A DNA stretch of 64,000 nucleotides, taken from Streptomyces cavernicola (GTDB taxonomy: Bacteria > Actinomycetota > Actinomycetes > Streptomycetales > Streptomycetaceae). Each line of letters starts with the position of its first letter. Positions within the stretch are counted from its first letter, which is position 1. Under the pieces are notes generated by a model, which was given only the letters and a program-made list of their open reading frames with translations, ran no database searches and was not told the origin of the DNA. Positions 8,921 to 36,456 of this stretch are shown one piece after another. The stretch is taken from the NCBI RefSeq assembly GCF_029968035.1, contig NZ_JASCIQ010000005.1:186001-250000 (forward strand). Reading direction: 5' to 3'. The position numbers were made by a program, and so were the translations under genes.

Positions 8921-9043
8921 CTCTCTGAAGTGGCCCCGGATCACGGCCGGTCGGCGGTGGTCCGGGGCAGCTCTGTGCGGGGATGACGACGCGTCATGTG
9001 TGATGCATGGCAGCTGTGTTACGTCTGTGCACAGCCCTTGTCG

Positions 9044-9078: not shown

Positions 9079-9162
9079 GAGCTGCATCCCCCCGAAATTG
9101 ACATGCTCCCGTCGTGCGATTCCCCCCCCATCGGTGCACCATCCACGAGGAGGACCCCTCAG

Positions 9163-10383: not shown

Positions 10384-10396
10384 CCCGGTAACCCTC

Positions 10397-10431
10397 CGCC
10401 CCCTCGCCCAGCCAGGGCGGGGGGCGTTTTT
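10397..10431 (+). terminator. Rho-independent terminator after the second subtilisin
   Basis: A 12-bp GC stem (CGCCCCCTCGCCC with GGGCGGGGGGCG) around a short loop is followed by five T residues, 14 bases after the stop codon. Confidence 0.85.
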
Positions 10432-11024: not shown

Positions 11025-11037
11025 CCGCGCCGGAGGC

Positions 11038-13959
11038 CTACTCGCCCGCACCCGGCAACGCCCCCCGCAACAGCTCCGCCAGATGCCGAGCCTTCCGGTC
11101 GGACAGCTGCTGAATCTGCGTCCGGCAGCTGAACCCGTCCGCCAGGACGACCGTCGATTCGGGCGCCGCCCGCAGCGCGGGCAACAGCGCCTGCTCGCCC
11201 ACCTGCACCGACACCTCGTAATGCCCCCGCTCGAAGCCGAAGTTGCCCGCGAGCCCGCAGCAGCCCGAGTCGAGGCGGCCGCTGTCGACGCCGAGGCGTG
11301 CGAGGACGCGGTCGTCGGCCGCGCTGCCGAGTGTCGCGTGCTGGTGGCAGTGGGTCTGGGTGAGGGCCGTGGCGCCCAGGCGGTCGAACGCCGCGTCCGG
11401 GGCGTGCCGGTCGAGGAGTTCGGCGAACGTCAGGGTCTGCTCGGCGGCCCGCCGCGCCCGGTCGTCCCCGGCGAGGAGCTCCGTACCGTCGCTGCGGAAC
11501 AGGGACGTGCAGCTCGGCTCCAGGCCGACCAGGGGGATGCCGCGCCGCAGGTACGGGTCGACGGAGGACAGTGTGCGGTCCAACACGCGCCGGGCCGTGT
11601 CGAGTTGGCCGGTCGTCAGCCACGTCAGGCCGCAGCACAGGCCGTCCGGTGGCAGCAGCACCTCGAAGCCCGCGGCCTCCAGAACCTCCACCGCGGCCCG
11701 CCCGACCTCGGGTGTGAAGTACTCCGTGAACGTGTCCGGCCAGAGGAGGACCTGCTGACGGTCACCCTCAGACGGCGTACGCCCTTCGAACCAGCGGCGG
11801 AACCGCTGCGGCGCGAACGGCGGCACCGCGCGCTGCGGCGCGATCCCGCCCGCCCGCTTGAGCAGCGCCGCCGCGAACGGGTTCTGCGTCACGGCGTTCG
11901 CCAGGCGCGGGGCCCGCCCGGCGAGCCGCGCCCACACCGGGAGCCGGCCCAGGGTGTAGTGCGTGACGGGGCGCAGCCGGCCGCGGTAGTGCTGGTGCAG
12001 GAACTCCGACTTGTACGTGGCCATGTCGACGCCGACCGGGCAGTCGCTCTTGCAGCCCTTGCAGGACAGGCACAGGTCGAGGGACTCGCGGGCCTCCTTC
12101 GAGCGCCAGCCGGCCGTGACGACCTCGCCCTGGATCATCTCGTAGAGGACGCGGGCGCGGCCGCGCGTGGAGTCCTTCTCGTCGCGGGTCGCGCGGTAAC
12201 TCGGGCACATCACGCCGCCGGTGGACGTACGGCACTTGGCGATGCCGACGCAGCGGCGCAGCGCCCGGCTCAGGTCGCCGTCGTCCTCCGCGAGGGCGAG
12301 GGTCGTCGTGAGCGGGAGCTGCGGCCGGTGTCCGGGGCGGATGCGGAGTCGTTCGTCGGCGGGGCGGGGGTGGACGAGGATGCCGGGGTTGAGCCGGTTC
12401 TCCGGGTCCCACACGTCCTTGAAGTGGGCGAACGCGGTCATCGCCTCGGGGCTGTAGACCAGGGGCAGGAACTCGGCGCGGGCCTGCCCGTCCCCGTGCT
12501 CCCCGGACAGGGTGCCGCCGTGACTCCCCACCAGACGCGCCGCGTCCGTCATGAACTGCCGGAAGATCCGCACCCCTTCAGGCGTCTCGTGGTCGAAGTC
12601 GATCCTGATGTGCACGCAGCCCTCGCCGAAGTGCCCGTACGGCGTGCCCTGCAGTCCGTGCCGGTCGAGCAGCGCCTGCAGGTCCCGCAGATAGTCGCCG
12701 AGGTGCTCGACGGGTACGGCGGAGTCCTCCCAGCCGGGCCAGGCCTCCGAGCCGTCGGGGGCGCGGGTGGCGAGGCCCGAGCTGTCCTCGCGGATCCGCC
12801 AGAGCGCGGCCTGCTCGGCGGGGTCGGCGACGAGGCGGACGGCGAGCGCGCCGGTGTCGCGGCGCAGCGCGGCCGCCAACTCCCGGTCGCCGTGGGGGTC
12901 TTCGGCGGCGTCCGCGTAGCCGAACTCGCAGAGCAGCCAGCCGCGGCCCTCCGGCAGGAGCTTCTCCGGCTCGGCGTCGGGGACGTTGCGGCGCAGCGCC
13001 GCCACCTGGTCGCCGCCGAGGCCCTCGCAGGCGATCGGCCGGTGCTCCAGGACGTGCCGGGCCGCGTCGCCCGCCGCGGGCAGGTCGGCGAAGCCGAGGG
13101 CGACGAGGGTGCGCCGGGCGGGCAGCGGGACGAGCCGGACGGTGGCGGCGAGGACGACGGCGCAGGTGCCCTCGGTGCCGACGAGGACGGCGGCCGGGTC
13201 GAAGCCGCGCTCGGGCAGCAGATGCTCCAGGCTGTAGCCGGAGACCTGGCGCGAGAAGCGGCCGAACTCGGTGCGGAGCAGGGCGAGATGGGCGTCCCGC
13301 AGGTCCCGCAGGCGGGCGTGGATCTCGCCGCGCCGGCCGCCCGCCTCGATGACCTGGAGCAGTTCTTCCTCGCTGAGCTTGCGCAGCGTCATGCGGTGCC
13401 CGTCGTACGTGACGACGTCGAGCTCCACGACGTTGTCGGCGGTGCGGCCCCAGGCCACCGAGTGGGTGCCGCAGGCGTTGTTGCCGATCATGCCGCCGAT
13501 GGTGCAGCGGGCGTGCGTCGACGGGTCGGGCCCGAACCGCAGGCCGTACGGGCGGAGCGTCTTCTGCAGGTCGTCGAGGACCACGCCGGGTTCCACGCGC
13601 GCGGTGCGGGCCTCGGGGTCGACGTCGAGGACCGCGCCGAGGTGGCGCGAGGTGTCGACGACGACCCCGTCCCCGACCGCCTGCCCGGCGATCGAGGTGC
13701 CCGCGCCGCGCAGCGTGACGGCCACGCCGTACCGGTGGCAGACCGCGAGGGTTCCGACCAGCTCGCCGGTGGAGCCGGGCAGCACCACGGCGGCCGGGAC
13801 CTGCCGGTACGTGGAGGCGTCCTGGGCGTACTCGGCGCGGCGGCGGGCGCCGAAGGACACCTCGCCGCTCACGACGACGGCCCGCAGGTCCCGTTGGAGC
13901 CGTGCCAGGGTCCGCCGCGCCTGGGTGGAGTCGGTGCGGGGCTCGGCAGGGGTGGACAT
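11038..13959 (-). CDS. Fused FAD/Fe-S 2-hydroxyacid dehydrogenase (GlcD-GlcF/YdiJ-like)
   Basis: This 973-residue protein joins a GlcD-type flavoprotein and a GlcF-type iron-sulfur subunit. Residues about 55-280 are a PCMH-type FAD domain (LRGAGTSIAGQAVGDGVVVDTSR; GMIGNNACGTHS), followed by the FAD-oxidase C domain (HFGEGCVHIRIDFD). Residues about 580-690 hold 4Fe-4S ligands (CLSCKGCKSDCPVG and VGIAKCRTSTGGVMCPSY). The C-terminal third has CCG-type motifs (DGLCCGLTW, DSGCCGLAGNFG). Such fusions oxidise D-lactate, D-2-hydroxyglutarate or similar acids and pass electrons to the respiratory chain. It lies 54 bases downstream of the GabT-like gene on the same strand and probably shares its operon and regulation. 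Confidence 0.9.
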   Translation of the reverse strand: MSTPAEPRTDSTQARRTLARLQRDLRAVVVSGEVSFGARRRAEYAQDASTYRQVPAAVVLPGSTGELVGTLAVCHRYGVAVTLRGAGTSIAGQAVGDGVVVDTSRHLGAVLDVDPEARTARVEPGVVLDDLQKTLRPYGLRFGPDPSTHARCTIGGMIGNNACGTHSVAWGRTADNVVELDVVTYDGHRMTLRKLSEEELLQVIEAGGRRGEIHARLRDLRDAHLALLRTEFGRFSRQVSGYSLEHLLPERGFDPAAVLVGTEGTCAVVLAATVRLVPLPARRTLVALGFADLPAAGDAARHVLEHRPIACEGLGGDQVAALRRNVPDAEPEKLLPEGRGWLLCEFGYADAAEDPHGDRELAAALRRDTGALAVRLVADPAEQAALWRIREDSSGLATRAPDGSEAWPGWEDSAVPVEHLGDYLRDLQALLDRHGLQGTPYGHFGEGCVHIRIDFDHETPEGVRIFRQFMTDAARLVGSHGGTLSGEHGDGQARAEFLPLVYSPEAMTAFAHFKDVWDPENRLNPGILVHPRPADERLRIRPGHRPQLPLTTTLALAEDDGDLSRALRRCVGIAKCRTSTGGVMCPSYRATRDEKDSTRGRARVLYEMIQGEVVTAGWRSKEARESLDLCLSCKGCKSDCPVGVDMATYKSEFLHQHYRGRLRPVTHYTLGRLPVWARLAGRAPRLANAVTQNPFAAALLKRAGGIAPQRAVPPFAPQRFRRWFEGRTPSEGDRQQVLLWPDTFTEYFTPEVGRAAVEVLEAAGFEVLLPPDGLCCGLTWLTTGQLDTARRVLDRTLSSVDPYLRRGIPLVGLEPSCTSLFRSDGTELLAGDDRARRAAEQTLTFAELLDRHAPDAAFDRLGATALTQTHCHQHATLGSAADDRVLARLGVDSGRLDSGCCGLAGNFGFERGHYEVSVQVGEQALLPALRAAPESTVVLADGFSCRTQIQQLSDRKARHLAELLRGALPGAGE

Positions 13960-21763: not shown

Positions 21764-22345
21764 ATGCAGGCTCTGCCCGACTGGATGGTCCCGCCCCGCC
21801 CGGAAGGCTGGTTCGCCGAGGACCTGGACCACCTTCCCGAAGCGCCCCGCCACACCGAACTCATCGACGGCGCCCTGGTGTTCAGGCTGACCCCGCAACG
21901 GGCGTGGCACAGCCGCGCAGTCACCGCGCTCACCGCAGCGCTCATGGCACGGGCGCCGGGCGGCGTCGAGGTCGCCAGGGAGATGACGACCCGCCTCGAC
22001 GCCCGGACCCGCCTGGAGCCCGACGTCCTGGTGACCACGGCGCCCTACGAGGCCGACCTCACCTGCTTCGCCCTGGAGGAGATCCTGCTCGTCATCGAGG
22101 TCGCCTCCCTCGAATCCGCCCATCGCGACAGCACGGTCAAGCTCCGCAAGTACGCGGAGGCGGGCATCCCGCACTACTGGTACGTCGAGGACGAGGACGG
22201 AGCACCCGTTGTCCACGTCTACGAACTCGACGAGCCGACCCGCGCCTACGCCCCGACCGGAATCTTCCGCGGCTCCCTGCAGCGCCTCGTCCCCTTCGAG
22301 ATCGACCTCGATCTCGACAAGCTCGTACCGCAGAGAGGCGACTGA
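21764..22345 (+). CDS. Uma2-family putative endonuclease (DUF820)
   Basis: This is a 193-residue protein of the Uma2/DUF820 family with a restriction-endonuclease-like fold. Core residues are visible as ELIDGALVFRL, LEPDVLVTT, LVIEVASLESAHRDSTVKLRKYAEAGIPHYWYVE, that is the D-x(n)-E-V and K-x-x-x-Y pattern. These genes are numerous in streptomycetes and usually of unknown function. It lies 13 bases after the GntR gene and may be read from the same transcript, though a functional link is not evident. A strong terminator follows. Confidence 0.85.
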   Translation: MQALPDWMVPPRPEGWFAEDLDHLPEAPRHTELIDGALVFRLTPQRAWHSRAVTALTAALMARAPGGVEVAREMTTRLDARTRLEPDVLVTTAPYEADLTCFALEEILLVIEVASLESAHRDSTVKLRKYAEAGIPHYWYVEDEDGAPVVHVYELDEPTRAYAPTGIFRGSLQRLVPFEIDLDLDKLVPQRGD

Positions 22346-22539: not shown

Positions 22540-23796
22540 GTGCCGAGTGAAGAGACCGAAGTCGTCGTCGTCGGAGCAGGTCAGGCCGGGGTCGCGATGA
22601 GCGAGCACCTGGGGGCCCAGGGCATACCGCACCTCGTCCTGGAGCGGCATCGCATCGCCGAGCGCTGGCGGTCGGAGCGCTGGGACTCCCTGGTCGCGAA
22701 CGGGCCCGCCTGGCACGACCGGTTCCCGGGCCTGGAGTTCACCGACGTGGACCCGGACGCCTTCCCCGCCAAGGAGCAGATCGCCGACTACTTCGTCGCG
22801 TACGCCGAGAAGATCGGGGCCCCGGTCCGGTGCGGCGTCGAGGTGACGAAGGTGCGCAAGCAGGAGGGGCAACCCGGGTTCCGGGTCGAGACCTCCGAGG
22901 GTGTGATCGACGCGCGCTTCGTGGTCGCCGCGACCGGGCCGTTCCAGCGGCCGGTGATCCCGCCGGTCGTCCCGGACGGCGCGGTGCCCGTGCAGATCCA
23001 CTCCAGCCAGTACCGCAACCCGGGCCAACTGCCCGACGGGGCCGTGCTCGTGGTGGGCGCAGGCTCCTCCGGCGTGCAGATCGCCGACGAGCTGCGCAGG
23101 TCCGGACGCCAGGTGTTCCTCTCCGTCGGGCCGCACGACCGGCCGCCGCGCCAGTACCGCGGCCGGGACTTCTGCTGGTGGCTCGGTGTCCTCGGCCTGT
23201 GGGACCTGGACACGCCGCCGCAGGGCGCGGCGCACGTCACCATCGCGGTCAGCGGCGCCCGCGGCGGGCACACCGTGGACTTCCGCGCGCTCGCCGCCGA
23301 CGGCGTCGAACTCCTCGGCATGACCTCCGCGTACGAGGACGGGGTACTGCGCTTCGCGCCCGACCTCGGCGAGAACATCGCGCTCGGCGACGAGAAGTAC
23401 CTGGACCTGCTCCGCGCCGCCGACGCCTACGTGGAGCGCAACGGGCTCGACCTGCCCGAGGAGCCCGAGGCGCACGTCCTCGGCCCCGACCCGGCCTGCG
23501 TGACCGAGCCCCGGCTCGAACTCGGCCTGGCCGAGGCGGGCGTGACCTCGATCGTCTGGGCGACGGGCTTCGCCACGGACCACAGCTGGCTGGAGGTCGA
23601 CGCGTTCGACGCGAACGGCCGCCCGGACCAGCGGCGCGGCGTCTCCACCGAGCCGGGCGTGTACTTCGTGGGCCTGCCGTGGCTGTCCCGGCGCGGGTCG
23701 AGCTTCATCTGGGGGGCCTGGCACGACGCCAAGTACATCGCCGACCACATCACGACCCAGCGCGGCTACCTCGCGTACGGCACGGACGAGAGCTGA
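22540..23796 (+). CDS. Flavin-containing monooxygenase-like FAD/NAD(P)-binding protein
   Basis: This is a 418-residue protein. I chose GTG 22540 because GGAGG lies five bases upstream. There are two Rossmann motifs: FAD-binding VVVVGAGQAGVAMSEHLGAQG near the N-terminus and NADPH-binding VLVVGAGSSGVQIADELRRSG at about 172-192. An FMO/BVMO-like segment (RWDSLVANGPAWHDRFPG) lies between. It resembles YUCCA/CzcO-type enzymes that hydroxylate nitrogen or insert oxygen. The gene leads a four-gene string with RidA, DUF1028 and M20 genes, which suggests oxidation of a nitrogen compound followed by imine and amide hydrolysis. The substrate is unknown. Confidence 0.82.
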   Translation: MPSEETEVVVVGAGQAGVAMSEHLGAQGIPHLVLERHRIAERWRSERWDSLVANGPAWHDRFPGLEFTDVDPDAFPAKEQIADYFVAYAEKIGAPVRCGVEVTKVRKQEGQPGFRVETSEGVIDARFVVAATGPFQRPVIPPVVPDGAVPVQIHSSQYRNPGQLPDGAVLVVGAGSSGVQIADELRRSGRQVFLSVGPHDRPPRQYRGRDFCWWLGVLGLWDLDTPPQGAAHVTIAVSGARGGHTVDFRALAADGVELLGMTSAYEDGVLRFAPDLGENIALGDEKYLDLLRAADAYVERNGLDLPEEPEAHVLGPDPACVTEPRLELGLAEAGVTSIVWATGFATDHSWLEVDAFDANGRPDQRRGVSTEPGVYFVGLPWLSRRGSSFIWGAWHDAKYIADHITTQRGYLAYGTDES

Positions 23797-23810
23797 GGAG
23801 CAGGACCACC

Positions 23811-24299
23811 ATGACCTCGACCAACGAGCCCAACGAGCCCGTCGTGGCCGGCGGGCACACCCGGATCCGCCCGTTCAACACCCGCGACACCTACCCCGAG
23901 CAGAGCCTCGACAACGACCTCTGCCAGGCCGTCGTCGCCGGCGACACGGTGTACGTGCGCGGCCAGATCGGCCAGGACCTCGACACCAGCGAGTCCGTCG
24001 GGATCGGCGACGCCGAGGCGCAGGCCGAGCAAGCCATGGCCAACATCAAGATGCTGCTCGAAGAGGCCGGCAGCCGGATGGAGCACCTGGTCAAGCTGAC
24101 GATCTACCTGATCGACCCGCGCTACCGCGAGGCCGTCTACCGCACGGTGGGCCGCTGGACCAAGGGCGTGCACCCGATCTCGACCGGCCTGGTCGTCTCG
24201 GCCCTCGCCCGCCCGGAGTGGCTGTGCGAGATCGACGCGATCGCGGTGATCCCCAAGGACGCGCAGGCCCCGCAGGACTCGAAGGAGGCGCGGGCGTGA
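23811..24299 (+). CDS. RidA-family protein
   Basis: This is a 162-residue Rid/YjgF protein. The family pattern is visible in VVAGDTVYVRGQIGQD, the helix AEAQAEQAMANIKMLLEEAGSRMEHLVKLTIYL and the end STGLVVSALARPEWLCEIDAIAVI. The usual catalytic arginine region near the C-terminal third is replaced by the LARPEWLCEIDA segment, which keeps an Arg and the Glu. Members hydrolyse enamines or imines made by other enzymes, or act in dedicated pathways such as aminoacrylate or aminomuconate deamination. The position after the flavin monooxygenase and a four-base overlap with the next gene support a pathway-specific role. Confidence 0.88.
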   Translation: MTSTNEPNEPVVAGGHTRIRPFNTRDTYPEQSLDNDLCQAVVAGDTVYVRGQIGQDLDTSESVGIGDAEAQAEQAMANIKMLLEEAGSRMEHLVKLTIYLIDPRYREAVYRTVGRWTKGVHPISTGLVVSALARPEWLCEIDAIAVIPKDAQAPQDSKEARA

Positions 24300-24970
24300 C
24301 GTTCTCCCTCGTAGTGCGGGACGGCGAGCGGTTCGGCATCGCGGCGAGCTCGTCGAGCCCCGCGGTCGCCGCGCGCGTGGTCCATCTGCGGCCCGGCGTC
24401 GGCGCGGCGACCTCGCAGAACGTCACCGACCCGACGCTCGGCCCCGATCTGCTCGACGCGCTCGCCGAGCACGGCGACCCGGAGCGCGCCCTGGCCGCCG
24501 TCACGGGCGCCGCACGCAACGAAAAGACCATCGCCTACCGGCAGTTGACGGTCCTCGGCCGGTCCGGGCCCGGCTTCGCGTACAGCGGCGCGAACACCCT
24601 GGGCACGCACGCCGCGGCCTGCGCGGACGGTGCGGTCGCGGCGGGCAACATGCTGTCCGGCGAGCACATCCCCGGCGTGCTGCTCGACGCGTACGCGGCG
24701 GCGAGCGGCGAGTTGGAAGAGCGCCTGGTCGCCGCGATGCAGGCGGCCCTCGCGGCGGGCGGCGAGGAGGGGCCGGTGTACTCGGCGGGCCTCGCGGTCG
24801 TCGCGGACGCCGACTGGCGCGTGACGGACCTGCGCGTCGACTGGGCCGAGGACCCGCTGAGGCGGCTCGGCGAGCTCGTCGACGTATGGCTCCCGCAGCG
24901 CGACGACTATGTGCGGCGCGGCCTCGACCCGGCCTCCGCGCCCTCCTACGGCGTTCCGGGGGACGAGTGA
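24296..24970 (+). CDS. DUF1028-family protein (Ntn-hydrolase-like)
   Basis: This 224-residue protein has a GTG start overlapping the RidA stop (GTGA). The DUF1028 pattern is clear: TFSLVVRDGERFGIAASSSSPAVAARV at the start, ATSQNVTDPTLGPDLLDAL, and AGNMLSGEHIPGVLLDAY. The family has an Ntn-hydrolase-like fold. Thr2 follows the initiator directly and could serve as an N-terminal nucleophile, although catalysis has not been settled for the family as far as I know. It is translationally coupled to the genes on both sides. Hydrolysis of an amide intermediate is a reasonable guess. Confidence 0.85.
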   Translation: MTFSLVVRDGERFGIAASSSSPAVAARVVHLRPGVGAATSQNVTDPTLGPDLLDALAEHGDPERALAAVTGAARNEKTIAYRQLTVLGRSGPGFAYSGANTLGTHAAACADGAVAAGNMLSGEHIPGVLLDAYAAASGELEERLVAAMQAALAAGGEEGPVYSAGLAVVADADWRVTDLRVDWAEDPLRRLGELVDVWLPQRDDYVRRGLDPASAPSYGVPGDE

Positions 24971-26112
24971 TGGGCGCCGCCGAGCGGATGAAGCAGGGCG
25001 CGCGGGCGGCCGTGAAACGGCACACGGACCGACTCATCGGCCTCTCCGAGCAGTTGCACGCCGACCCGGAGACCGCGTGGGAGGAGCACCGGGCGGCCGC
25101 GGCCGTGCCGGAGCTGCTCGACCGCGCCGGGTTCGACGTCACGTCGGCGTACCTGGGCCTGGACACCGCGTTCCACGCCCGCTTCGGCAGCGGGCCCGTG
25201 CGGATCGCGCTGTGCGCGGAGTACGACGCGCTGCCCGGCCTCGGCCACGCCTGCGGGCACAACCTGATCGCGGCGAGCTCGGTCGGCGCGGCGCTCGGCC
25301 TGGCCGCCGTCGCCGACGAGGCCGGGCTGACCGTGGAGGTGTACGGCACGCCGGCCGAGGAGGGCGGCGGCGGCAAGATCGAGCTCCTTGACCGGGGCGC
25401 GTTCGCCGGGGTCGACCTGGCGATGATGGTGCACCCGGCGCCGGTCGACGTGGCCGAGGCCCGGCCGTTCGCGGTCAGCCACTCGAAGATCTCGTACACG
25501 GGCAAGTCCGCGCACGCCGCGGCCTACCCGGAGGCCGGGGTCAACGCGGCCGACGCGTTCACGGTGGCCCAGGTCGCCATCGGCCTGCTCCGCCAGCAAC
25601 TGCCCGCCTCCGCGCGGGTCCACGGGGTGGTGACGCACGCCGGGGACGCCCCGAACGCCATCCCGGAGCGGGCCGACGGCCGTTGGTACGTACGGGCCGA
25701 AACCCTCGCGGAACTCGCCGAGTTGGAGCCGCGCGTGATGCGGGCCTTCGAGGCGGGCGCGCTCGCGACCGGCTGCGAGCTCGACGTCGAGCCGGAGAGC
25801 AAGCCGTACGCGGAGTTCCGCGCGGACGAGTCGGCGCTCGCGCACTACCGCGCCAACGCCCTGGCCCTGGGGCGGGAGTTCGCGCCGCCCGGCCAGGCGG
25901 CGCGGATGAACCGGGCCTCCACGGACATGGGCAACGTCTCGCAAGTGGTCCCGGCCATCCACCCGTACATCGGCATCGGCTCACTGCCGGCCACCAACCA
26001 CCAGCGCGAGTTCGCCGCGCACTGTGTCGGCGGCCCGGCGGAGCGCGCGCTGCTCGACGGGGCGCTGGCCCTCGCCTGGACGGGCGTGGACCGGGCGACC
26101 GCACAGCACTGA
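24970..26112 (+). CDS. M20-family metallo-amidohydrolase
   Basis: This 380-residue protein starts at ATG 24970, overlapping the preceding TGA. Zinc-site motifs are present: LPGLGHACGHNLI (about 92-104), TPAEEGGGGKIELL and MMVHPAPVD. The fold closing motif RASTDMGNVSQVVPAIHPYIG is typical of the AbgB/peptidase M20 domain-containing group that hydrolyses N-acyl or N-aminobenzoyl amino acids. It probably performs the last hydrolytic step of the pathway begun by the monooxygenase. The substrate is not evident. Confidence 0.88.
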   Translation: MGAAERMKQGARAAVKRHTDRLIGLSEQLHADPETAWEEHRAAAAVPELLDRAGFDVTSAYLGLDTAFHARFGSGPVRIALCAEYDALPGLGHACGHNLIAASSVGAALGLAAVADEAGLTVEVYGTPAEEGGGGKIELLDRGAFAGVDLAMMVHPAPVDVAEARPFAVSHSKISYTGKSAHAAAYPEAGVNAADAFTVAQVAIGLLRQQLPASARVHGVVTHAGDAPNAIPERADGRWYVRAETLAELAELEPRVMRAFEAGALATGCELDVEPESKPYAEFRADESALAHYRANALALGREFAPPGQAARMNRASTDMGNVSQVVPAIHPYIGIGSLPATNHQREFAAHCVGGPAERALLDGALALAWTGVDRATAQH

Positions 26113-26180
26113 CCACACCGACCACACCACACCACCCACACCACACCGACCATCCACACCCGCACCGCACTGACCACACG
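26113..26180. repeat. CCACA/CCACAC low-complexity tract
   Basis: The spacer between the M20 and MFS genes is built from irregular ACCACACCGACC and CACACCACACC units. It lacks G on the plus strand over long stretches. It might vary in length, but no defined function is apparent. Confidence 0.7.
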
Positions 26181-26216
26181 GGGCCGGCTTCTCCACCCAT
26201 CCCCAAGGAGGCGTGT

Positions 26217-27581
26217 ATGCCCACCTCTCACACCGGCGCGACGACGATCGAAGCCGAGGTCGAGCCGGCCACGGACCCGGTCGCCCTGCGCAGGAGCGTC
26301 GCCGCGGGAGCCGTCGGCGTGTTCGTCCACTGGTTCGACTGGGCCGCGTACGCGTATCTCGCGGGCACCGTCGCGACCGTGTTCTTCCCCGCCGAGGACA
26401 GCACGACCGGACTGCTCGCGGTCTTCGGCGTGTTCGCCGTCTCCTTCGGCATCCGGCCGATCGGGGCGCTGGTGTTCGGCCCGCTCGGCGACCGGATCGG
26501 CCGCAAGCGCACCCTGTCCCTGGTGATCTTCACGATGTCCGGCGCGACCCTGGCGATCGGTCTGCTGCCCGGGTACGCGTCCCTCGGCATCGCCGCGCCG
26601 ATCCTGCTCGTCGTCCTGCGCCTGGTCCAGGGGTTCGCGGCGGGCGGCGAGTTCGGCAGCGCGGCGAGCTTCCTCGCGGAGAGCGCGCCGCGCCGCCGCC
26701 GCGGCTTCGGCGTGGGCTGGCTGGAGGTCGGCTCGCTGCTGGGCTTCCTGGCCGGCTCGTTCGTCTTCCTGCTCCTGTCCACCTGGCTCGACGAGGCCCA
26801 GCTCACCGCCTGGGGCTGGCGCATCCCGTTCCTGATCGCCGCCCCGCTCGGCGTCATCGGCTACGTCATCCGCAACAAGATCGAGGACACCCCCGAGTAC
26901 CGGGCGCTCGAAGCCAACGACACCGTCCCGCGCTCCCCCGCCCGCGAGCTGCTCCGCTGCCACAGGCGCCAACTCCTGCAGGCGGCAGGCCTGATGGCGG
27001 CCATGCACGTCCCGTTCTACGCCGTCCTCACCTACCTGGTGACGTACGAGACGGACCACCTCGGCCACTCCGCGGACGGCGCCGCCCTGCTCTCCACGGC
27101 CATCTCGCTGCTCGGCCTGGCCCTCGTGCCGCTGTTCGGCGCGCTGTCCGACCGGGTGGGCCGCAAGCCGGTGTTCGTCGGCGCGACGGCGGCCCTCTTC
27201 GTCCTCGCCACCCCGGCGTTCCTGCTGATGCGCACGGGCACCGTCGGGACGTGGATCGCGGGGCTGCTGCTCGGCGTGATCCTGGCGGCGATCCTCGGCA
27301 CGTACGCGGTGTGGTCGGCGGAGGTCTTCCCGACGCGGACGCGGCAGAGCGGACTGTCCCTCGCGTACAACGTGACAGCCGCGCTGTTCGCCGGGACGGT
27401 CCCGTACCTGATGACGGTGCTGATCTCGGCGACCGGCAGCACGCTCGTGCCCGGCCCGTACCTGATGGTCTTCGCGGCGGCCGGCCTGATCGCCGCGCTG
27501 TCCCTGAAGGAGACGGCGGGATCCTCGCTGCTGCACGCCGAGGACATCGCGGCGGATGCCGCGCCCGCCGTCCGCGCGTAG
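26217..27581 (+). CDS. MFS transporter, metabolite:H+ symporter (MHS) type
   Basis: This is a 454-residue protein with about 12 membrane helices. The start is ATG 26217, preceded by AAGGAGG. MHS/ProP features are the opening GVFVHWFDWAAYAYLAG, the loop motif GPLGDRIGRKRTL between helices 2 and 3, and LRLVQGFAAGGEFGSAASFLAE. The internal repeat motif LFGALSDRVGRKPVFVGA lies in the second half. These carriers import osmolytes or organic acids with protons. Its place directly after the monooxygenase-RidA-DUF1028-M20 genes suggests that it imports the substrate. Confidence 0.9.
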   Translation: MPTSHTGATTIEAEVEPATDPVALRRSVAAGAVGVFVHWFDWAAYAYLAGTVATVFFPAEDSTTGLLAVFGVFAVSFGIRPIGALVFGPLGDRIGRKRTLSLVIFTMSGATLAIGLLPGYASLGIAAPILLVVLRLVQGFAAGGEFGSAASFLAESAPRRRRGFGVGWLEVGSLLGFLAGSFVFLLLSTWLDEAQLTAWGWRIPFLIAAPLGVIGYVIRNKIEDTPEYRALEANDTVPRSPARELLRCHRRQLLQAAGLMAAMHVPFYAVLTYLVTYETDHLGHSADGAALLSTAISLLGLALVPLFGALSDRVGRKPVFVGATAALFVLATPAFLLMRTGTVGTWIAGLLLGVILAAILGTYAVWSAEVFPTRTRQSGLSLAYNVTAALFAGTVPYLMTVLISATGSTLVPGPYLMVFAAAGLIAALSLKETAGSSLLHAEDIAADAAPAVRA

Positions 27582-27663: not shown

Positions 27664-28590
27664 ATGACGTCACCGCTGGGATTCACCCTCGTACAGCTCC
27701 GCTACTTCCTGGTCGCCGCCGAGCGCGGTTCGGTCACGGAGGCCTCGGTGGAACTGCACATCGCGCAGTCCGCCGTGTCCGCCGCGATCCACAACCTGGA
27801 GCGGGACCTGCAGGTGCAGCTGTTCATCCGGCGTCGGGGCCGGGGCCTGACCCTCACCCCCGCCGGGGAGCGCCTGCGCCAGCAGGGGCGCGACCTGCTC
27901 GCGCGCGCCCGCGAGGTGGAGCGGGAGGCGCGCGGCGACGGCGAGACGGTCTCCGGGCCGGTCTCCGTCGGCTGCTTCGTCACCCTCTCCCCGTACTACC
28001 TCCCGGCCCTGTTCAGCGAGTGCACGCGGCACTTCCCCGACATCGAGATCGACGTGCTGGAGGCGGAGACCGACGCCCTCGTGCGCGCCCTCGCGTCCGG
28101 GCGCATCGACTTCGCGCTCACGTACGACCTGGGGCTCTCGACCGAGCCGGAGGTGCACAGCGAGACGATCGCGCGTGCGCCGGCGTACGTGATCGTCGCG
28201 GCGGGCCATCCGCTGGCGGAGCGGGGCAGTGTGGAGCTGGCCGAGCTGTCGGCGGAGCCGCTCGTCCTGCTGGACCTGCCGCACAGCCGCGACTACTTCC
28301 GCTCCCTGGTCGCCGCGACCGGCACCGCCCCGGACGTCCGCTACCGCACGCAGTCGTACGAGACGGTGCGCTCGCTCGTCGCCCGCGGGCTCGGCTACTC
28401 GGTCCTGAACCAGCGTCCGGCCACGAGTCAGACGTACGGGGGCGGGGAGGTGGTGGAGCTCGAACTCCTTGATGCCGGGCCGGCGTTGGAGGTGCGGATT
28501 GCGACGCTGGTGGGGGTGGGGCAGAGTGCGCGGGCTCGGGCGGTGATGTCCCTGCTCCGTGAGCTCTCCCCCACCCCGCCCCTTCCCTGA
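27664..28590 (+). CDS. LysR-family regulator
   Basis: This is a 308-residue regulator with an N-terminal helix-turn-helix (VQLRYFLVAAERGSVTEASVELHIAQSAVSAAIHNLERDL) and a LysR substrate domain from about residue 95. It follows the MFS gene by 82 bases in the same direction and probably controls the 22.5-27.6 kb operon. The last residues, SPTPPLP, and the stop codon are encoded by the left end of the 28.6-kb intergenic repeat island, so the repeat has apparently shaped the C-terminus of this protein. Confidence 0.88.
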   Translation: MTSPLGFTLVQLRYFLVAAERGSVTEASVELHIAQSAVSAAIHNLERDLQVQLFIRRRGRGLTLTPAGERLRQQGRDLLARAREVEREARGDGETVSGPVSVGCFVTLSPYYLPALFSECTRHFPDIEIDVLEAETDALVRALASGRIDFALTYDLGLSTEPEVHSETIARAPAYVIVAAGHPLAERGSVELAELSAEPLVLLDLPHSRDYFRSLVAATGTAPDVRYRTQSYETVRSLVARGLGYSVLNQRPATSQTYGGGEVVELELLDAGPALEVRIATLVGVGQSARARAVMSLLRELSPTPPLP

Positions 28591-29245
28591 AGTCCTCAGC
28601 GGACACCTCCGGGGCCTGCCCCCCGGCCCCCGCCTTCCCGCGGCTCCGCCCCGGCCCCCGGCTGTCCTTCGGCTGCCGCGCCGCCGTGGCCGCTCGCGCA
28701 GTTCCCCGCGCCCCTGAAGAGCCGGGGGCTCCGCCCCGGACCCCGGCCGGCCTTCGGCTGCCCGCTTCGTCGTGGTTGATCGCGCAGTTCCCCGCGCCCC
28801 CGGAAAGCCCGGGGCTCCGCCCCCAGACCCCGGCCGTCTTTCGGCTGCCCGCTTCGTCGTGGTTGATCGCGCAGTTCCCCGCGCCCCCGGAGAGCCAGGG
28901 GCTCCGCCCCAGACCCTGGCCGTCCTTCGGCTGCCCGCTTCGTCGTGGCTGGTCGCGCAGTTCCCCGCGCCCCTGAATGATCAGCCCCTGCCGGGGCTGA
29001 ATCCCGCCACAGCCCGCAAAATCCAGCCCCTCCGGCGATTGAGGAGCGGGGGTCCGGGGGCTGGCCCCCGAGCGGGGTCCAGGGGCGGAGCCCCGAAGCG
29101 GGGTCCAGGGGCGGCAGCCCCGGGGGGCTGGGGCGGCAGTCCCCGGGGAGCGGGGAGCTGGGGGCGGCAGTTCCCGGGGCTGTCCGCCAGGCCACGCGGC
29201 GGCAGCCGCAAATTGACACAGCCGGGAAGGGGCGGGGAGGGGAAG
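28564..29245. repeat. Intergenic repeat island with near-identical tandem modules
   Basis: The island begins inside the LysR gene end (CCCCACCCCGCCCCTTCCC) and ends with the inverse near 29224-29245. Its left half holds an approximately 85-bp unit repeated three to four times between about 28640 and 28975: a GGGGCTCCGCCCC stem, a CTTCGGCTGCCCGCTTCGTC segment and a GATCGCGCAGTTCCCCGCGC segment. The right half has a CAGCCCCTCCGGCGATTGAG module and GGGGC stems. No coding sequence is seen in this 670-bp gap. Confidence 0.8.
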
Positions 29246-29261: not shown

Positions 29262-29879
29262 CTACAGGTCCGGGCACCCGGTGACCGCACGCGCCTGGGC
29301 CAGCAGCAGCTCCCGCGCCCGCTCCGGCCGCACCGCGGCGTTGTGGCTGACGATGTGCAACCCGTACCCGTCCTCCAGCGCGACCAGCCCATGCGCGAGA
29401 TCCCGCGCGGACGCCGCCAGCGTGAACACCCCCATCGCCGCCCCCACTTCGAGCGCCGTCGCGTACAACCCGACCTCCCGCCCGAACAGCGAGGTCATCA
29501 GCTCCGCATGCCCGGGGCTGCGCCCCGCCCGCCGGTGGAGTTGGTAGAGGAGGCCGTGGAGGGAGTCCTCCGCGCTCGACGGCAGCCCGCTGTCGACAAG
29601 CGCCCGCAGCCGCGCCGCCGGCGACCCCGCGGCCGCGGATTCGTACGCCCGCTGCCGGGACTCCAGGTACCCCTCCACCGCGCCGCGGTGCACCTCCAGG
29701 ACGAGGTCGTCCAGCTCCGGGTAGTAGTACAGGACCGAGCCCTGCGAGACGCCCGCCGCATCGGCGATGTCCTTGATCCGCAGCCCTTCGAGGCCGCGCT
29801 CGGTGATCGCCTGCCCCGCCGCGGAGACGAGGGCCTGCCTGCGCGCCGTCTGATTGCGCGGTCTGCCGACTTTGCTCAT
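29262..29879 (-). CDS. TetR-family regulator
   Basis: This is a regulator of about 205 residues. ATG 29879 (MSKVGRP) is preferred to a TTG nine bases upstream. The helix-turn-helix lies at about residues 20-60 (GLEGLRIKDIADAAGVSQGSVLYYYPELDDLV). The C-terminal helices are of the TetR_C type found in regulators of amine use. It is divergent from the PuuC-like aldehyde dehydrogenase gene with a 197-bp gap, and so is probably the local repressor. A short inverted repeat TTTGA-N9-TCAAA near 29959-29977 is a weak operator candidate. Confidence 0.85.
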   Translation of the reverse strand: MSKVGRPRNQTARRQALVSAAGQAITERGLEGLRIKDIADAAGVSQGSVLYYYPELDDLVLEVHRGAVEGYLESRQRAYESAAAGSPAARLRALVDSGLPSSAEDSLHGLLYQLHRRAGRSPGHAELMTSLFGREVGLYATALEVGAAMGVFTLAASARDLAHGLVALEDGYGLHIVSHNAAVRPERARELLLAQARAVTGCPDL

Positions 29880-30076: not shown

Positions 30077-31567
30077 ATGACGACGTACTCGCACTGGCGG
30101 CAGCGCGCCGCCGAGCTCGTCCCCCGCACCCGCCTCTTCATCGACGGCGCCTGGTCGGAGCCCACCGGCGACGACCCCTGGCTGCCCACCGTGAACCCCG
30201 CCACCGGCAAGACCACCGCGCACGTCGCGATCGCCTCCGCCGCCGACGTCGACCGCGCCGTGGCCGCAGGCCGTACCGCCTTCGAGGACGGCCGCTGGTC
30301 ACGCACCGCCCCCGCCGAGCGCAAGCGCGTCCTGCTCGAACTGGCCCGCCTGATCGAGGCGCACGGCGAGGAGCTCGCCCTCTGCGACACCCTCGACATG
30401 GGCAAGCCGATCGCCGAGTCGTACGGCACGGACGTGCCCGGCGCGGCCGGCGTCTTCGCCTGGTACGCGGAGGCCCTGGACAAGCTGTACGACGAGGTCG
30501 CCCCGGCCCCGCCCGGCAACCTGGCCCTGGTGCGGCGCGCCCCGCTGGGCGTCGTCGGCGCGGTCGTGCCGTGGAACTTCCCGCTGGACATCGCGAGTTG
30601 GAAGGTCGCACCCGCCCTCGCCGCCGGCAACAGCGTGGTCCTGAAGCCGGCCGAGCAGTCGCCGCAGTCGGCGCTGCTGCTCGCCGAGCTCGCCTCGCGG
30701 GCCGGACTCCCGGACGGCGTCCTGAACGTCGTGACGGGCCCCGGCGAGATCACCGGTCGCGCCCTCGGCCTGCACCCGGACGTGGACTGCCTGGCGTTCA
30801 CCGGCTCCACCGCCGTCGCCAAGCGCTTCCTGGGCTACGCGGCCGAGTCCAACATGAAGCAGGTGTGGCCCGAGGCGGGCGGCAAGAGCCCGAACCTGGT
30901 CTTCGCCGACGCCGACCTGGACGCCGCCGCGGAGCGCGCCGCCTGGGGCTTCGCGTACAACGCGGGGCAGGTGTGCTCGTCCAACACCCGTCTGCTCGTG
31001 GAGAGTTCGATCGCCGAGGAGTTCGCCGCCCGGGTCGCCGAGCACGCCCGCGGCTGGCTGCCGGGCGACCCGCTCGACCCGGCCACGCGGCTCGGCCCGC
31101 TGGTCGACGAGGCCCAGGCGCGGCGCGTGCTCGCTGCGGTGGACGCCGCGATCACCGGCTCCGGCGGCACGCTGCTGTGCGGCGGCACGCGGCCCGAGCG
31201 CGAGGGCGCGTACGTCGACCCGGCCGTCGTGACCGGACTCGACCCCGAAGCACCGCTCGTACGCGAGGAGTTGTTCGGGCCCGTGCTCGCGGTGCTGCCG
31301 TTCCGCGACGAGGCGGAGGCGGTGCGGCTCGCGAACGACTCCGCGTACGGCCTGGCCGCGTCCGTCTGGAGCCGGGACCTGGGCCGCGCGCACCGCGTCG
31401 CCGACGCGCTCCGGGCGGGCACCGTCTCCGTCAACACCGTCGACGCGCTCAGCCCGTTCACGCCCTTCGGCGGCTTCAAGCAGTCCGGCCACGGCCGTGA
31501 CCTCTCGCTGCACTCCTTCGACAAGTACACGGGCCTCAAGACCACATGGATCTCGTACGACGCCTGA
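30077..31567 (+). CDS. PuuC-like aldehyde dehydrogenase (aminoaldehyde type)
   Basis: This 496-residue NAD-dependent aldehyde dehydrogenase starts at ATG 30077. The general base lies in MKQVWPEAGGKSPNLVFAD, where EAGGKS replaces the common ELGGK; this variant is characteristic of PuuC/gamma-glutamyl-aminobutyraldehyde dehydrogenases. The catalytic cysteine lies in YNAGQVCSSNTRL. The end is FGGFKQSGHGRDLSLHSFDKYT, also PuuC-like. With the aminotransferase and APC permease that follow, this fits oxidation of an aminoaldehyde from putrescine or another amine. The glutamylation enzyme of the Puu route is not seen in this window. Confidence 0.85.
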   Translation: MTTYSHWRQRAAELVPRTRLFIDGAWSEPTGDDPWLPTVNPATGKTTAHVAIASAADVDRAVAAGRTAFEDGRWSRTAPAERKRVLLELARLIEAHGEELALCDTLDMGKPIAESYGTDVPGAAGVFAWYAEALDKLYDEVAPAPPGNLALVRRAPLGVVGAVVPWNFPLDIASWKVAPALAAGNSVVLKPAEQSPQSALLLAELASRAGLPDGVLNVVTGPGEITGRALGLHPDVDCLAFTGSTAVAKRFLGYAAESNMKQVWPEAGGKSPNLVFADADLDAAAERAAWGFAYNAGQVCSSNTRLLVESSIAEEFAARVAEHARGWLPGDPLDPATRLGPLVDEAQARRVLAAVDAAITGSGGTLLCGGTRPEREGAYVDPAVVTGLDPEAPLVREELFGPVLAVLPFRDEAEAVRLANDSAYGLAASVWSRDLGRAHRVADALRAGTVSVNTVDALSPFTPFGGFKQSGHGRDLSLHSFDKYTGLKTTWISYDA

Positions 31568-31607: not shown

Positions 31608-32960
31608 ATGACCCTCGACGCCGCCGAACTCGCCCGCCTCGACCGGGCGCACATCATCCACCCCTACCTGCCGGGCAGCGCCACCGAGCGCATCGTGATG
31701 ACCGAGGGGGCGGGCTGCCGGCTCACCGACACCGAGGGCCGGAGCTACCTCGACGCCACCGGCGGCCTCTGGCTGGCGCAGGTCGGCCACGGGCGCACGG
31801 ACCTCGCGGACGTGGCGCACGAGCAGATGAAGAAGCTGGAGTACTTCACCAGCTTCTGGGACTTCTCCAACGACCGCGCCATCGAACTGGCCGCCCGCCT
31901 CGCCGAGTTGGCGCCGGACCCGCTGAACCACGTGTACTACACGTCCGGCGGTTCGGAGGGCGTCGAGGCCGCGATCAAGATGGCCCGCTACTACCACCAC
32001 CGCCGCGGCGAGGGCAGCCGCACCTGGATCCTGGCGCGCAGCAAGGCGTACCACGGCGTGGGCTACGGCGGCAGCTCCGCCGCCGGATTCCCGCTGTACC
32101 AGGAGGGCTTCGCCCCGATGGTGCCGCACGTCTCGCACCTGACCCCGCCGTGGCCGTACCGCAGCGAGCTGTACGACGGCCAGGACCCCACCGACTTCCT
32201 CATCCGCGAACTGGAGGAGCGGATCGCGGAGATCGGCCCGGAGAACATCGCCGCGATGGTAGGCGAGCCGATCATGGGCGTCGGCGGCATGCTCGTACCG
32301 CCCGCCGACTACTGGCCGCGGGTCCGCGAGGTCCTGGACCGGCACGGCATCCTGCTGATCTTCGACGAGGTCGTCACCGCGTACGGGCGGGTGGGCGAGT
32401 GGTTCGCCGCCCAGTACTTCGAGACCACCCCGGACATCATCGTCACCGCCAAGGGCATCACCTCCGGGTACGTCCCGCTGGGCGCGCTGCTCGTCGGGGA
32501 CCACGTCGCCGAGGCGCTCCTGCGTGAGCAGGGCTTCCCGATGGGCTACACGTACAACGGCCACCCGGTCGCCACGGCCGTCGCACTCGCCAACCTCGAC
32601 GTCATCGAGAAGGAGGGGCTGCTCGCCCGCGCGACCACCATCGGCTCCTTCCTGCACGCCGAACTCCAGTCGCAGCTGGGCGAGTTGGACGTGGTCGGCG
32701 AGGTCCGCTCGGTCGGCATGATGCTCGCCGTGGAGCTCGTCGCGGACAAGGCGACCCGTGAGCCGCTGCCGCTCGACCCCGAGCGGATGCCGCACGACGT
32801 GATCCGCCGCGAGTCCGGCGTCATCGTCCGCGACTCGGCGCACAGCCTGGTGCTCTCGCCGCCGCTGATCATGACCGAGGCGGAGGCCAAGGAGGCGGCG
32901 TCCGCGCTGCGCAGCGTCCTGGAGCGCACCGAGCCGAACGGCCGGATCCGCGAGGCCTGA
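31608..32960 (+). CDS. Class III aminotransferase, polyamine or omega-amino-acid type
   Basis: This is a 450-residue PLP enzyme. Visible are the N-terminal HIIHPYLPGSATERIV, the cofactor pocket YYTSGGSEGVEAAIKMARYYH, LLIFDEVVTAYGRVGEWFA and the lysine in IIVTAKGITSGYVPLGALL. It resembles the putrescine/beta-alanine:pyruvate aminotransferase group (SpuC-like) rather than GabT. It follows the PuuC-like gene by 40 bases, and the two would convert a diamine to an amino acid. The precise amine is not known. Confidence 0.87.
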   Translation: MTLDAAELARLDRAHIIHPYLPGSATERIVMTEGAGCRLTDTEGRSYLDATGGLWLAQVGHGRTDLADVAHEQMKKLEYFTSFWDFSNDRAIELAARLAELAPDPLNHVYYTSGGSEGVEAAIKMARYYHHRRGEGSRTWILARSKAYHGVGYGGSSAAGFPLYQEGFAPMVPHVSHLTPPWPYRSELYDGQDPTDFLIRELEERIAEIGPENIAAMVGEPIMGVGGMLVPPADYWPRVREVLDRHGILLIFDEVVTAYGRVGEWFAAQYFETTPDIIVTAKGITSGYVPLGALLVGDHVAEALLREQGFPMGYTYNGHPVATAVALANLDVIEKEGLLARATTIGSFLHAELQSQLGELDVVGEVRSVGMMLAVELVADKATREPLPLDPERMPHDVIRRESGVIVRDSAHSLVLSPPLIMTEAEAKEAASALRSVLERTEPNGRIREA

Positions 32961-33107: not shown

Positions 33108-34622
33108 GTGTCCACCAAGCTCTCGCCCCCTGACCTGCCGGCGCCCGAGGCCACCCCGGGCCTGCGGCGCAGCCTCAAGCGCTTCGACATCACCGCCATG
33201 GCCGTGGCCGCGGTGATCTCCTTCGACACCGTCGGACAGATCGCCACCGGCGGCGGCGAGGCCGCCACCTGGACGGCGGCCATCGCCGTGTTCTTCCTCA
33301 TCCCGTACGCCCTGCTCTTCGCCGAGACCGGTGCCGCGTTCCCGCAGGAGGGCGGCCCGTACATGTGGGTCAAGCTCGCCCTCGGCCGGCCCGCGGCGGC
33401 GCTCACGACCCTCTTCTACTGGGTCACCAACCCGATCTGGCTGGGCGGTTCGCTGGTCTTCCTCGCCGCCGAGACCTGGGACGGCTTCGTCTTCCACCTG
33501 GGCTCGGGCACGTTCGCCGACTACGCGTTCAAGCTCGTCTTCGTCTGGGCCGCCATCCTCACCGCGGTCGTCTCCCTCAGCCGCGGCAAGTGGATCACCA
33601 CGGCCGGGGCGATCGTGAAGGTCCTCTCCCTCGCCCTGTTCACGCTCACCGCCGTCCTGTATGGGGCCCAGCACGGCTTCCGGGGCCTGGCCGACGCCAG
33701 CTTCACGCCGACGACGGCCGGTTTCCTCGCCCTCGTGCCGATCCTGCTCTTCGCGTACGTCGGCTTCGAGGCGCCGAACGCCGCGGGCGAGGAGATGCAC
33801 GACCCGCAGCGCGACGTGCCCGCCGCACTCGGCCGCTCCGCGACCATCGCCGCCTGCTGCTACCTCCTGCCGGTCCTCGCGCTCCTCGCCGTCGTGCCGG
33901 CCGGGAAGGTCACCGGCGTCGGCGGCTTCATGGAGGGCGCGCGGCTCGTCTTCGGCGTGTACGGCGGCGCGGCCGGGCCGCTCCTCACGCTCACCGCGGT
34001 CATGTTCGTCTTCGCGCTCCTCACCCAGGGCAGCGCGTGGATGATCGTCTCCGACCGTATGCAGGCCATGGCCGCGGCGGACGGCGGCTTCTTCTCCCGC
34101 GCGCTCGGGGCGTTCCACCCGAGGCTCGCGACGCCGGTGCGGACGAACCTGCTGTCCGGCGCGGTCGCCACGGTCTTCATGTTCGCCGCGATGCAGCTGG
34201 CCGACGGCGACACGGCGGCGGTGTTCACGGTCGTCCTCACCGTGGCGGTGACCACGCTGCTCCTGTCGTACTTGGTCGTCGTCCCCGCCCTCGTGGTCCT
34301 GCGGCTGCGCCGCCCGGAGGTCCGCCGACCGTACCGAGTCCCGTTCGGGAACCGGGGGTTCGTGCTCTGCGCGGCCCTGGTGTACGCGTGGATCCTGGTC
34401 GGCTCCTGGTCGGCGCTGTTCCCCGGGGTCCTGGAGGGGCTCTTCGGCATCGACTACGTGTTCAGCGAGATCTGGGGCGTCTCCCGGCTCGCGTTCGAGA
34501 CCTTCACCCTCGGTACGGTCGCGCTGCTCCTCCTCGTCGGGGCGGTCGGCCTCGCGGTGGCCCGGCGTACGGACCGGGGCGTTGACCGAGGCGCTGACCG
34601 GGGCGCGGCGGCCGACGGCTGA
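33108..34622 (+). CDS. APC-family amino acid/polyamine permease
   Basis: This is a 504-residue protein with about 12 membrane helices and a GTG start. It has the APC opening (LKRFDITAMAVAAVISFDTVGQIATGGGEAATW) and GAAFPQEGGPYMWVKLALG. It is the third gene after the PuuC-like and aminotransferase genes, separated by a GC-rich spacer with repeated CCCGTACCGACAC. Import of the amine used by those enzymes is the simplest reading. A bidirectional-type hairpin follows the stop. Confidence 0.9.
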   Translation: MSTKLSPPDLPAPEATPGLRRSLKRFDITAMAVAAVISFDTVGQIATGGGEAATWTAAIAVFFLIPYALLFAETGAAFPQEGGPYMWVKLALGRPAAALTTLFYWVTNPIWLGGSLVFLAAETWDGFVFHLGSGTFADYAFKLVFVWAAILTAVVSLSRGKWITTAGAIVKVLSLALFTLTAVLYGAQHGFRGLADASFTPTTAGFLALVPILLFAYVGFEAPNAAGEEMHDPQRDVPAALGRSATIAACCYLLPVLALLAVVPAGKVTGVGGFMEGARLVFGVYGGAAGPLLTLTAVMFVFALLTQGSAWMIVSDRMQAMAAADGGFFSRALGAFHPRLATPVRTNLLSGAVATVFMFAAMQLADGDTAAVFTVVLTVAVTTLLLSYLVVVPALVVLRLRRPEVRRPYRVPFGNRGFVLCAALVYAWILVGSWSALFPGVLEGLFGIDYVFSEIWGVSRLAFETFTLGTVALLLLVGAVGLAVARRTDRGVDRGADRGAAADG

Positions 34623-36021: not shown

Positions 36022-36456
36022 GTGACTGTGACCAGGAAGGTTCGCCGATTCTCCGGCGGCGTGCACGACCTCGGGCTCCACGTGGTGTGGTGCCCGAAGT
36101 ACCGCCGTCCGGTCCTCGGCGGCAGGGTCGCGGAACGCCTGGACGAGCTGATCCGGCAGAAGGCAGACGAGCGAGGGTGGGAGATCATCGCTCTTGAGGT
36201 GATGCCCGACCACGTGCACCTGTGCGTCAAGCACGACCCCAAATCATCGGCCTCGTACGTCGCGAACCAGTTCAAGGGCTTCACCTCCCGCATACTTCGC
36301 TCGGAGTTCCCGCACCTGAAGTCGCGGATGCCCACGCTGTGGTCGTCGTCGTACTTCGCAGCCTCGGTCGGCGCGGTGTCGGCGGCCACGGTGGAGAAAT
36401 ACATCAACACCCAGTGGGAGCGCCCCTCGAAGAAGGGGAAGGGGGACGCCTCGTGA
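36022..36456 (+). CDS. tnpA: IS200/IS605 Y1 transposase TnpA
   Basis: This is a 144-residue single-strand transposase with a GTG start. The HUH metal site is His64-Val-His66 in MPDHVHLCV, and the nucleophile is Tyr127 in VEKYINTQ. Length and order match the family. It overlaps tnpB by four bases (GTGA). An AT-rich TATATTC about ten bases upstream may be the -10 element. All catalytic residues are present, so the element may still move. Confidence 0.95.
   Translation: MTVTRKVRRFSGGVHDLGLHVVWCPKYRRPVLGGRVAERLDELIRQKADERGWEIIALEVMPDHVHLCVKHDPKSSASYVANQFKGFTSRILRSEFPHLKSRMPTLWSSSYFAASVGAVSAATVEKYINTQWERPSKKGKGDAS

Follow-up and report, generated by a model that had tools for sequence, protein, structure and literature searches.

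Excerpts of two reports describe Pseudomonas hinFLHG as the imidazole-acetate half of histamine catabolism (PMC8231116, PMC6467879). In these excerpts, HinF is a flavin adenine dinucleotide (FAD)-monooxygenase (EC 1.14.13.5), HinL an enamine deaminase, HinH an amidase and HinG an amidase assigned EC 3.5.1.8, while HinI is an aspartase, HinA a permease, HinC an aminotransferase and HinD an aldehyde dehydrogenase (ALDH). HinK, a regulator of the LysR family, reportedly responds to imidazole-4-acetate, although its affinity in vitro is low (PMC8231116, PMC6467879). The Pseudomonas gene order is given there as hinFLHG (PA5393–PA5390), and part of a third report ties PA0219–PA0221 to histamine (PMC2542419). 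Brevibacterium strains grow on histamine, and homologs of HinADFGHIL are present in a pathway described as putative in the accessible part of the report (PMC6467879). Here, we analyzed a 64,000-nucleotide stretch of the Streptomyces cavernicola genome (contig NZ_JASCIQ010000005.1, positions 186,001–250,000; hereafter, the window), in which positions 22540–27581 encode a flavin monooxygenase (FMO), a RidA-fold protein, a DUF1028 protein, an M20 hydrolase and a transporter. This operon is very probably an actinobacterial imidazole-acetate (histamine) catabolic cluster, comprising hinFLHG together with a regulator and a transporter.

The operon is encoded on the plus strand. The FMO gene (22540–23796) has a GTG start, and its product is Pyr_redox_3/FMO-like and is proposed to be a HinF-type imidazoleacetate 4-monooxygenase; the nearest NCBIfam model, TIGR04046, gives 359 bits, under its cut-off of 498. 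The next gene encodes the HinL-type RidA-fold protein (23811–24299; PF01042, 76.5 bits against a cut-off of 27.3), in which Ser replaces the catalytic Arg. The DUF1028 protein (24296–24970), a deduced HinH-type protein with Thr2 after the start codon, passes the PF06267 profile with 177.7 bits against a curated cut-off of 26.2. The M20 metallohydrolase (24970–26112; PF01546/PF07687) is PM20D2/HmrA-like and is a proposed formylaspartate deformylase in the role of HinG. There is an overlap of 4 bases between the DUF1028 GTG and the RidA stop, and of 1 base between the M20 ATG and the DUF1028 stop (TGATG). A spacer at 26113–26216, 3′ of M20 and without an aspartate ammonia-lyase gene, precedes the transporter of the MFS_1 family (26217–27581), which is proposed to take up imidazole acetate or a related acid. 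Its best NCBIfam match is the MHS model TIGR00883 at 364 bits, under the curated cut-off of 443, and it is therefore named MHS-like only. A LysR regulator gene follows at 27664–28590. The arrangement described in the earlier note, with overlapping RidA, DUF1028 and M20 genes, an upstream FMO, and a downstream importer and LysR gene, was confirmed at these positions. Farther downstream lie a TetR-family regulator gene (29262–29879, minus strand; PF00440, PF13977) and, on the plus strand, genes for an ALDH (30077–31567; PF00171), a class III aminotransferase (31608–32960; PF00202) and an APC amino-acid/amine permease (33108–34622; PF13520), which may fill HinD-, HinC- and HinA-type roles, respectively. 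The aminotransferase start is an ATG picked by alignment with the protein of a related locus (L004), to which the window protein is 88% identical, and the permease is 88% identical to that of another (L021). The correspondence with hinFLHG, the presence of genes for amine-to-acid conversion directly downstream and the aspartase in many relatives go beyond the earlier note.

The association among these genes is a conserved operon and not chance. We examined 80 genome loci, namely the best 80 of 159 matches to DUF1028 with flanks of at most 8 kb, in which the neighboring genes were scored by tblastn at identity thresholds of 37–60% depending on the gene, so that distant genes are undercounted. 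RidA is located immediately upstream of DUF1028 (within 200 bases) in all 80 loci. M20 is likewise present in 80/80 and lies at most 400 bases downstream of DUF1028 in 79. The FMO was found in 79 loci, being adjacent and co-directional in 56, divergent upstream in 20 and elsewhere in the locus in 3. LysR occurs in 75 loci and MHS in 57, followed by ALDH (32), TetR (28), aminotransferase (15), APC permease (15) and Cu amine oxidase (7). An aspartate ammonia-lyase match was detected in 35 loci; it is directly 3′ of M20 in 33, including a remnant in L046, and elsewhere in the locus in L016 and L075. The lyases of L008 and of an Arthrobacter plasmid (L085) were typed as NF008909 aspartate ammonia-lyase. 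Since the 80 loci were chosen via DUF1028, the converse search was run from the FMO side. Among 345 genomes of the class, a close FMO (identity of at least 66%, with the next group at 47% or below) occurs in 15 and a close DUF1028 (at least 48%, with the next at 38%; a remnant in G246 excluded) in 17, and all 15 fall within the 17 (Fisher p = 2e-24, uncorrected for kinship). The two genes do not always adjoin, lying on different contigs in G398 and about 14 kb apart in G414. Across 246 genomes of the genus, DUF1028 is present in 17, the FMO in 15 and both in 14 (in pieces in G823), while G650 has only a partial FMO and G697, G701 and G767 have DUF1028 only. RidA and M20 are adjacent to DUF1028 in 17/17 Hin-type loci (L119–L135). 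The co-occurrence raised in the earlier note is thus widespread, in the converse direction as well. A general link between DUF1028 and RidA was considered and rejected for the loci retrieved, which cover a part of the matches: none of 42 other DUF1028 loci (L088–L117, L136 and L138–L148; about 1.5 kb on each side, some ended by a contig edge) shows RidA, FMO or M20.

The gene order FMO-RidA-DUF1028-argE is also found on plasmids of Burkholderia, Klebsiella and Bradyrhizobium. Of 105 Klebsiella plasmid records that matched DUF1028, one was read, and it holds these four genes at 8983–12504 (L118). No Pseudomonas appeared among the plasmid matches listed, which were 60 each of 282, 736 and 236 records. 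The Arthrobacter plasmid carries genes for ALDH, primary-amine oxidase, TetR, LysR, FMO, RidA, DUF1028, M20 and aspartate ammonia-lyase within a single stretch that uses both strands. The regulator points in the same direction: the solved structures nearest by sequence to the window LysR are 3fzv and 6m5f (200 bits), the latter titled as HinK, and the next-best matches reach 115 bits (a ligand-domain-only chain) and 95 bits (OxyR). Ranking by Foldseek E-value also places 3fzv and 6m5f first. By analogy, the LysR protein probably senses imidazole acetate, as HinK reportedly does.

The same operon and chemistry could instead serve another imidazole or N-heterocycle, such as histaminol or a different imidazole acid, and histamine would then be incidental. 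The Klebsiella cluster, in which a GMC oxidoreductase, an ALDH and a cytosine permease are encoded beside FMO-RidA-DUF1028-argE, would agree with this possibility, as would an Acetobacter plasmid with the same kinds of genes, the Pantoea and Escherichia coli plasmid clusters with other neighbors, and the MHS-like importer, which would suit an acid. However, the aminotransferase, ALDH and APC permease of the window and the Cu amine oxidase in 7 of the 80 relatives indicate an amine, and the LysR is nearest to HinK; we consider this alternative unlikely. Regarding the substrate class suggested by the earlier note, an N-heterocycle fits the gene set, while no support was found for an N-acyl amine. 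The theme of N-acyl amine breakdown was dropped because an imidazole amine suits the aspartase, amine oxidase, aminotransferase, ALDH and HinK-like LysR, and no neighbor indicated an acyl amine.

The position of DUF1028 within this gene set suggests its identity. The FMO, RidA and M20 genes account for F, L and G, which leaves DUF1028 as HinH. As far as the available part of the report goes, HinH is 48–50% identical over its full length to a Brevibacterium gene that adjoins HinL by locus tag (PMC6467879). The DUF1028 proteins of the window and Klebsiella are conserved to a similar degree (48% identical over their length), whereas the corresponding pair of M20 proteins is dissimilar. HinH is therefore probably the DUF1028 protein, a deduction from gene order and reported identities.

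The AlphaFold2 model of the window DUF1028, built with 41 sequences, has a mean pLDDT of 93.3 and a pTM of 0.90. Its best match is the DUF1028 structure SPO2555 (2imh; Z = 31.5), followed in the rows listed by HslV and proteasome subunits (Z = 11.1–12.4), and the model places the protein in the N-terminal nucleophile (Ntn) fold. SPO2555 shares family and fold with the window protein at 26% identity, but its aligned sequence lacks the Ser run at 19–20, Arg27 and Asn42 of the Hin-type proteins. In HslV and the proteasome β subunit, the catalytic threonine is chain residue 1. The alignment begins with model residue 2 on chain residue 1 in 22 of 50 listed rows, the other rows being numbered otherwise. 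Thr2 is present in all 110 aligned sequences, comprising 68 Hin-type and 42 other DUF1028 proteins (a duplicate, L119, a remnant, L137, and partial matches of other DUF1028 were excluded). The start codon directly precedes Thr in 27 of the 28 Hin-type loci checked, the exception being Bacillus badius; the Hin-type proteins would thus need no propeptide, unlike HslV and the proteasome. The same holds for 26 of the 42 other DUF1028 loci. A strictly N-terminal Thr2 in all DUF1028 proteins was rejected, as 16 of these 42 loci and Bacillus badius lack a start codon directly before it; such proteins could be processed, or could speak against a nucleophile. By fold, position and conservation, Thr2 is a credible nucleophile, in line with the proposal of the earlier note. 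The HslV and 20S proteasome β subunits have the Ntn fold and the N-terminal Thr position in common with the model, but they are only 9–21% identical to DUF1028, and protease activity is not supported.

Hin-type and other DUF1028 proteins differ at Ser20, Ser21, Arg27, Asn42, Glu157 and the C-terminal tail, which ends in YGVPGD in the Hin type. At position 20, Ser occurs in 68/68 Hin-type sequences, and Lys, His or Arg in 41/42 of the others. This difference would be compatible with a non-catalytic role, in which DUF1028 would be an Ntn-fold partner that, for instance, scaffolds the RidA protein, and so would the invariant position of RidA immediately upstream and the overlap of the two genes in the window. 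The invariance of Thr2, its place directly after the start codon in nearly all Hin-type loci and the retention of DUF1028 where no close RidA exists (G701) argue the other way, and we regard a scaffold role as very unlikely.

The classical imidazole-acetate pathway comprises hydroxylation, lactam opening to formimino-aspartate, deimination to formyl-aspartate, deformylation and the aspartase step. On the basis of the gene families, we infer the substrates, the hydrolysis assigned to each enzyme and the transporter roles as follows. The APC permease would import histamine, which the aminotransferase and ALDH would convert to imidazole-4-acetate. The FMO, following the published assignment of HinF, would hydroxylate the ring to yield imidazolone acetate. 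DUF1028, as HinH, would act as an Ntn amidohydrolase via Thr2 and open the lactam to form N-formimino-aspartate, and the RidA-fold protein (HinL) may help to convert this to N-formyl-aspartate. M20, in the role published for HinG, would strip the formyl group to release aspartate, from which an aspartase would produce fumarate. The placement of DUF1028 is in keeping with EC 3.5.1.8 being assigned to HinG in the excerpts, since the lactam is then the remaining amide for the amidase HinH. The chances that DUF1028 is the putative imidazolone-opening enzyme are about even. Alternatively, DUF1028 might act on another step, namely deformylation or the deimination of formimino-aspartate, in which case ring opening would fall to M20 or RidA. 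The Ntn hydrolase class is active on many amide-type bonds, and the G701 cluster keeps DUF1028 and M20 with no close RidA, so that DUF1028 might cover two steps. This arrangement is harder to reconcile with the assignment of HinG in the excerpts, which leaves the lactam to HinH, and it appears doubtful, although it deserves more weight than a scaffold role.

The RidA-fold protein may depart from the chemistry that its family would suggest. Its Ser aligns opposite the conserved Arg in three of four alignments to solved RidA-type chains, the fourth chain having no Arg there, and Ser occupies this position in 112/113 homologous sequences (some being the same gene fetched twice). The conserved Arg is called essential for imine hydrolysis in the consulted portion of a published study (PMC4433059). 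Five other RidA copies of the window's genome were aligned as a control: Arg is opposite Ser in L156 and two columns off in L157, and L158, L160 and L161 have none at the site, which makes this control weak and mixed. Three own-genome copies entered the 113-sequence alignment, and none has Arg at that column. Because Ser replaces the essential Arg, Rid-type imine hydrolysis is unsupported; the protein is RidA-like in fold, and a role as an imine deaminase is not supported. Of the reaction set proposed in the earlier note, one oxidation and the amide-type hydrolyses fit, while imine hydrolysis by RidA does not stand.

The M20 protein of the window does not resemble the ArgE-type M20 of Burkholderia to any meaningful degree (E = 0.04). 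It is not of the ArgE type encoded on the proteobacterial plasmids, although its role may still match. On plasmids of Pantoea and E. coli (L172 and L175), RidA-DUF1028-argE is accompanied by genes for an ABC transporter, a quinone oxidoreductase, a glutathione S-transferase and a dehydroquinate dehydratase. With these neighbors and no annotated FMO in the stretches, the trio may serve other substrates; the plasmid gene tables are incomplete, and absences there are therefore weak.

In several loci, the FMO slot is occupied by a different oxygenase. L058 carries HpaC and HpaB as separate genes ahead of RidA-DUF1028-M20; a fusion of the two was rejected, as the matches sit in different frames. 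G697 (L166) and G767 (L168) each contain LysR, HpaC, HpaB, RidA, DUF1028, M20, TetR, ALDH, aminotransferase and APC permease genes, of which the downstream members correspond to the TetR-ALDH-aminotransferase-APC set of the window. The ALDHs are 76–77% identical to that of the window, the aminotransferases 84–85% to the L004 query and the permeases 79–87% to the L021 query (that of G697 being cut by the locus end); G697 carries an additional NCS1 permease. G701 (L167) has the order HpaC-HpaB-DUF1028-M20-aspartase. HpaB (E = 1e-100) was detected in five of the 246 genus genomes: G000, G697, G701, G767 and G246, the last with a decayed DUF1028. The decayed operon of G246 (L171, G246:C10, 8331–16253) retains the tail of DUF1028, one fragment each of M20 and MHS and a LysR match that is nearly complete, and its HpaB gene lies about 4 kb beyond. 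A second set in the window's own genome consists of HpaB-RidA-DUF1028, accompanied by a LysR gene and an amino-acid permease (L083, G000:C35, 8173–13306). Similar HpaB-type sets are found on Aminobacter and Bacillus badius plasmids. HpaB and HpaC are both present in G574, and G050 has an HpaC-type gene with no HpaB found within the 12 kb read. The simplest reading of these gene contents is that HpaB/HpaC replaces HinF, and the HpaB/HpaC sets possibly act on a different substrate. Neither the oxygenase swap nor the different M20 branch is mentioned in the available parts of the hin literature.

Taken as a whole, a histamine/imidazole-acetate cluster using the proposed route is the best explanation and a likely one, on the evidence of the genes. 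Several observations weigh against it. The catalytic Arg is missing from the HinL-type RidA, and in G701 an HpaB/HpaC cluster includes DUF1028 although the whole genome holds no close RidA. The equation of HinH with DUF1028 is only a deduction from gene order and reported identities. The M20 is of another branch than that of the proteobacteria, and the window's cluster contains no aspartase; two other aspartase homologs (65% and 47%) are encoded in its genome. No FMO is annotated in the Pantoea and E. coli plasmid stretches, within their incomplete gene tables. Finally, the TM-scores of the LysR protein to HinK (0.62–0.64) are not above those of some OxyR chains, so that the link to HinK rests on sequence.

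If this explanation is correct, DUF1028 can be assigned to a pathway, with both a reaction and a nucleophile, histamine and imidazole-acetate use is spread through Actinobacteria, and the HpaB/HpaC swap represents one ring-oxidation step served by two unrelated oxygenases. We tentatively propose, at somewhat less than even chances, that Hin-type DUF1028 opens the ring of imidazolone acetate as a Thr2-dependent cyclic amidohydrolase of proteasome fold. It would be the counterpart of the imidazolonepropionase of the histidine pathway without being related to it, and its reaction would be the first assigned to PF06267. On this proposal, the trio formed by DUF1028 accepts either of two unrelated oxygenases, FMO or HpaB/HpaC, the latter constituting a second class of imidazole-acetate monooxygenase with two components. 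The operon is known in kind as hin-type; the probable identity of HinH as a DUF1028 protein of proteasome-like fold with Thr2 is not mentioned in the accessible hin literature. Our literature searches surfaced no paper under the name DUF1028 or its accession, and nothing relevant on Streptomyces and histamine among the matches listed (10 of 55).

Other features of the window lie in or near this region. A Uma2-family putative endonuclease gene (21764–22345) is located directly upstream of the operon. Between the LysR and TetR genes, the sequence at 28600–29150 resembles imperfect GC-rich repeats by eye. An IS605 OrfB/TnpB-like transposase, bearing a Cas12f1-like TNB domain, is encoded at 36222–37712.

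In comparison with the described pathways, the F-L-H-G order of Pseudomonas putida U and P. aeruginosa equals the FMO-RidA-DUF1028-M20 order of the window, with the third gene being HinH by deduction. The ALDH, aminotransferase and APC permease of the window are of the kinds encoded at PA0219, PA0221 and PA0220, respectively. Pseudomonas has the aspartase HinI; many relatives of the window carry an aspartase, whereas the cluster of the window has none. The Pseudomonas genes are distributed over separate loci, while those of the window are gathered in one region, with an MHS-like transporter and a TetR regulator added, and the M20 of the actinobacteria is of the PM20D2/HmrA branch rather than ArgE. 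A statement quoted in a review, seen in excerpt, holds that hin genes are absent from Gram-positives (PMC8231116), and it is already contradicted by Brevibacterium (PMC6467879). The Brevibacterium pathway is actinobacterial, like that of the window, but according to the same partial source the best homolog of HinG is set apart from the others by its locus tag, whereas in the window M20 directly overlaps DUF1028.

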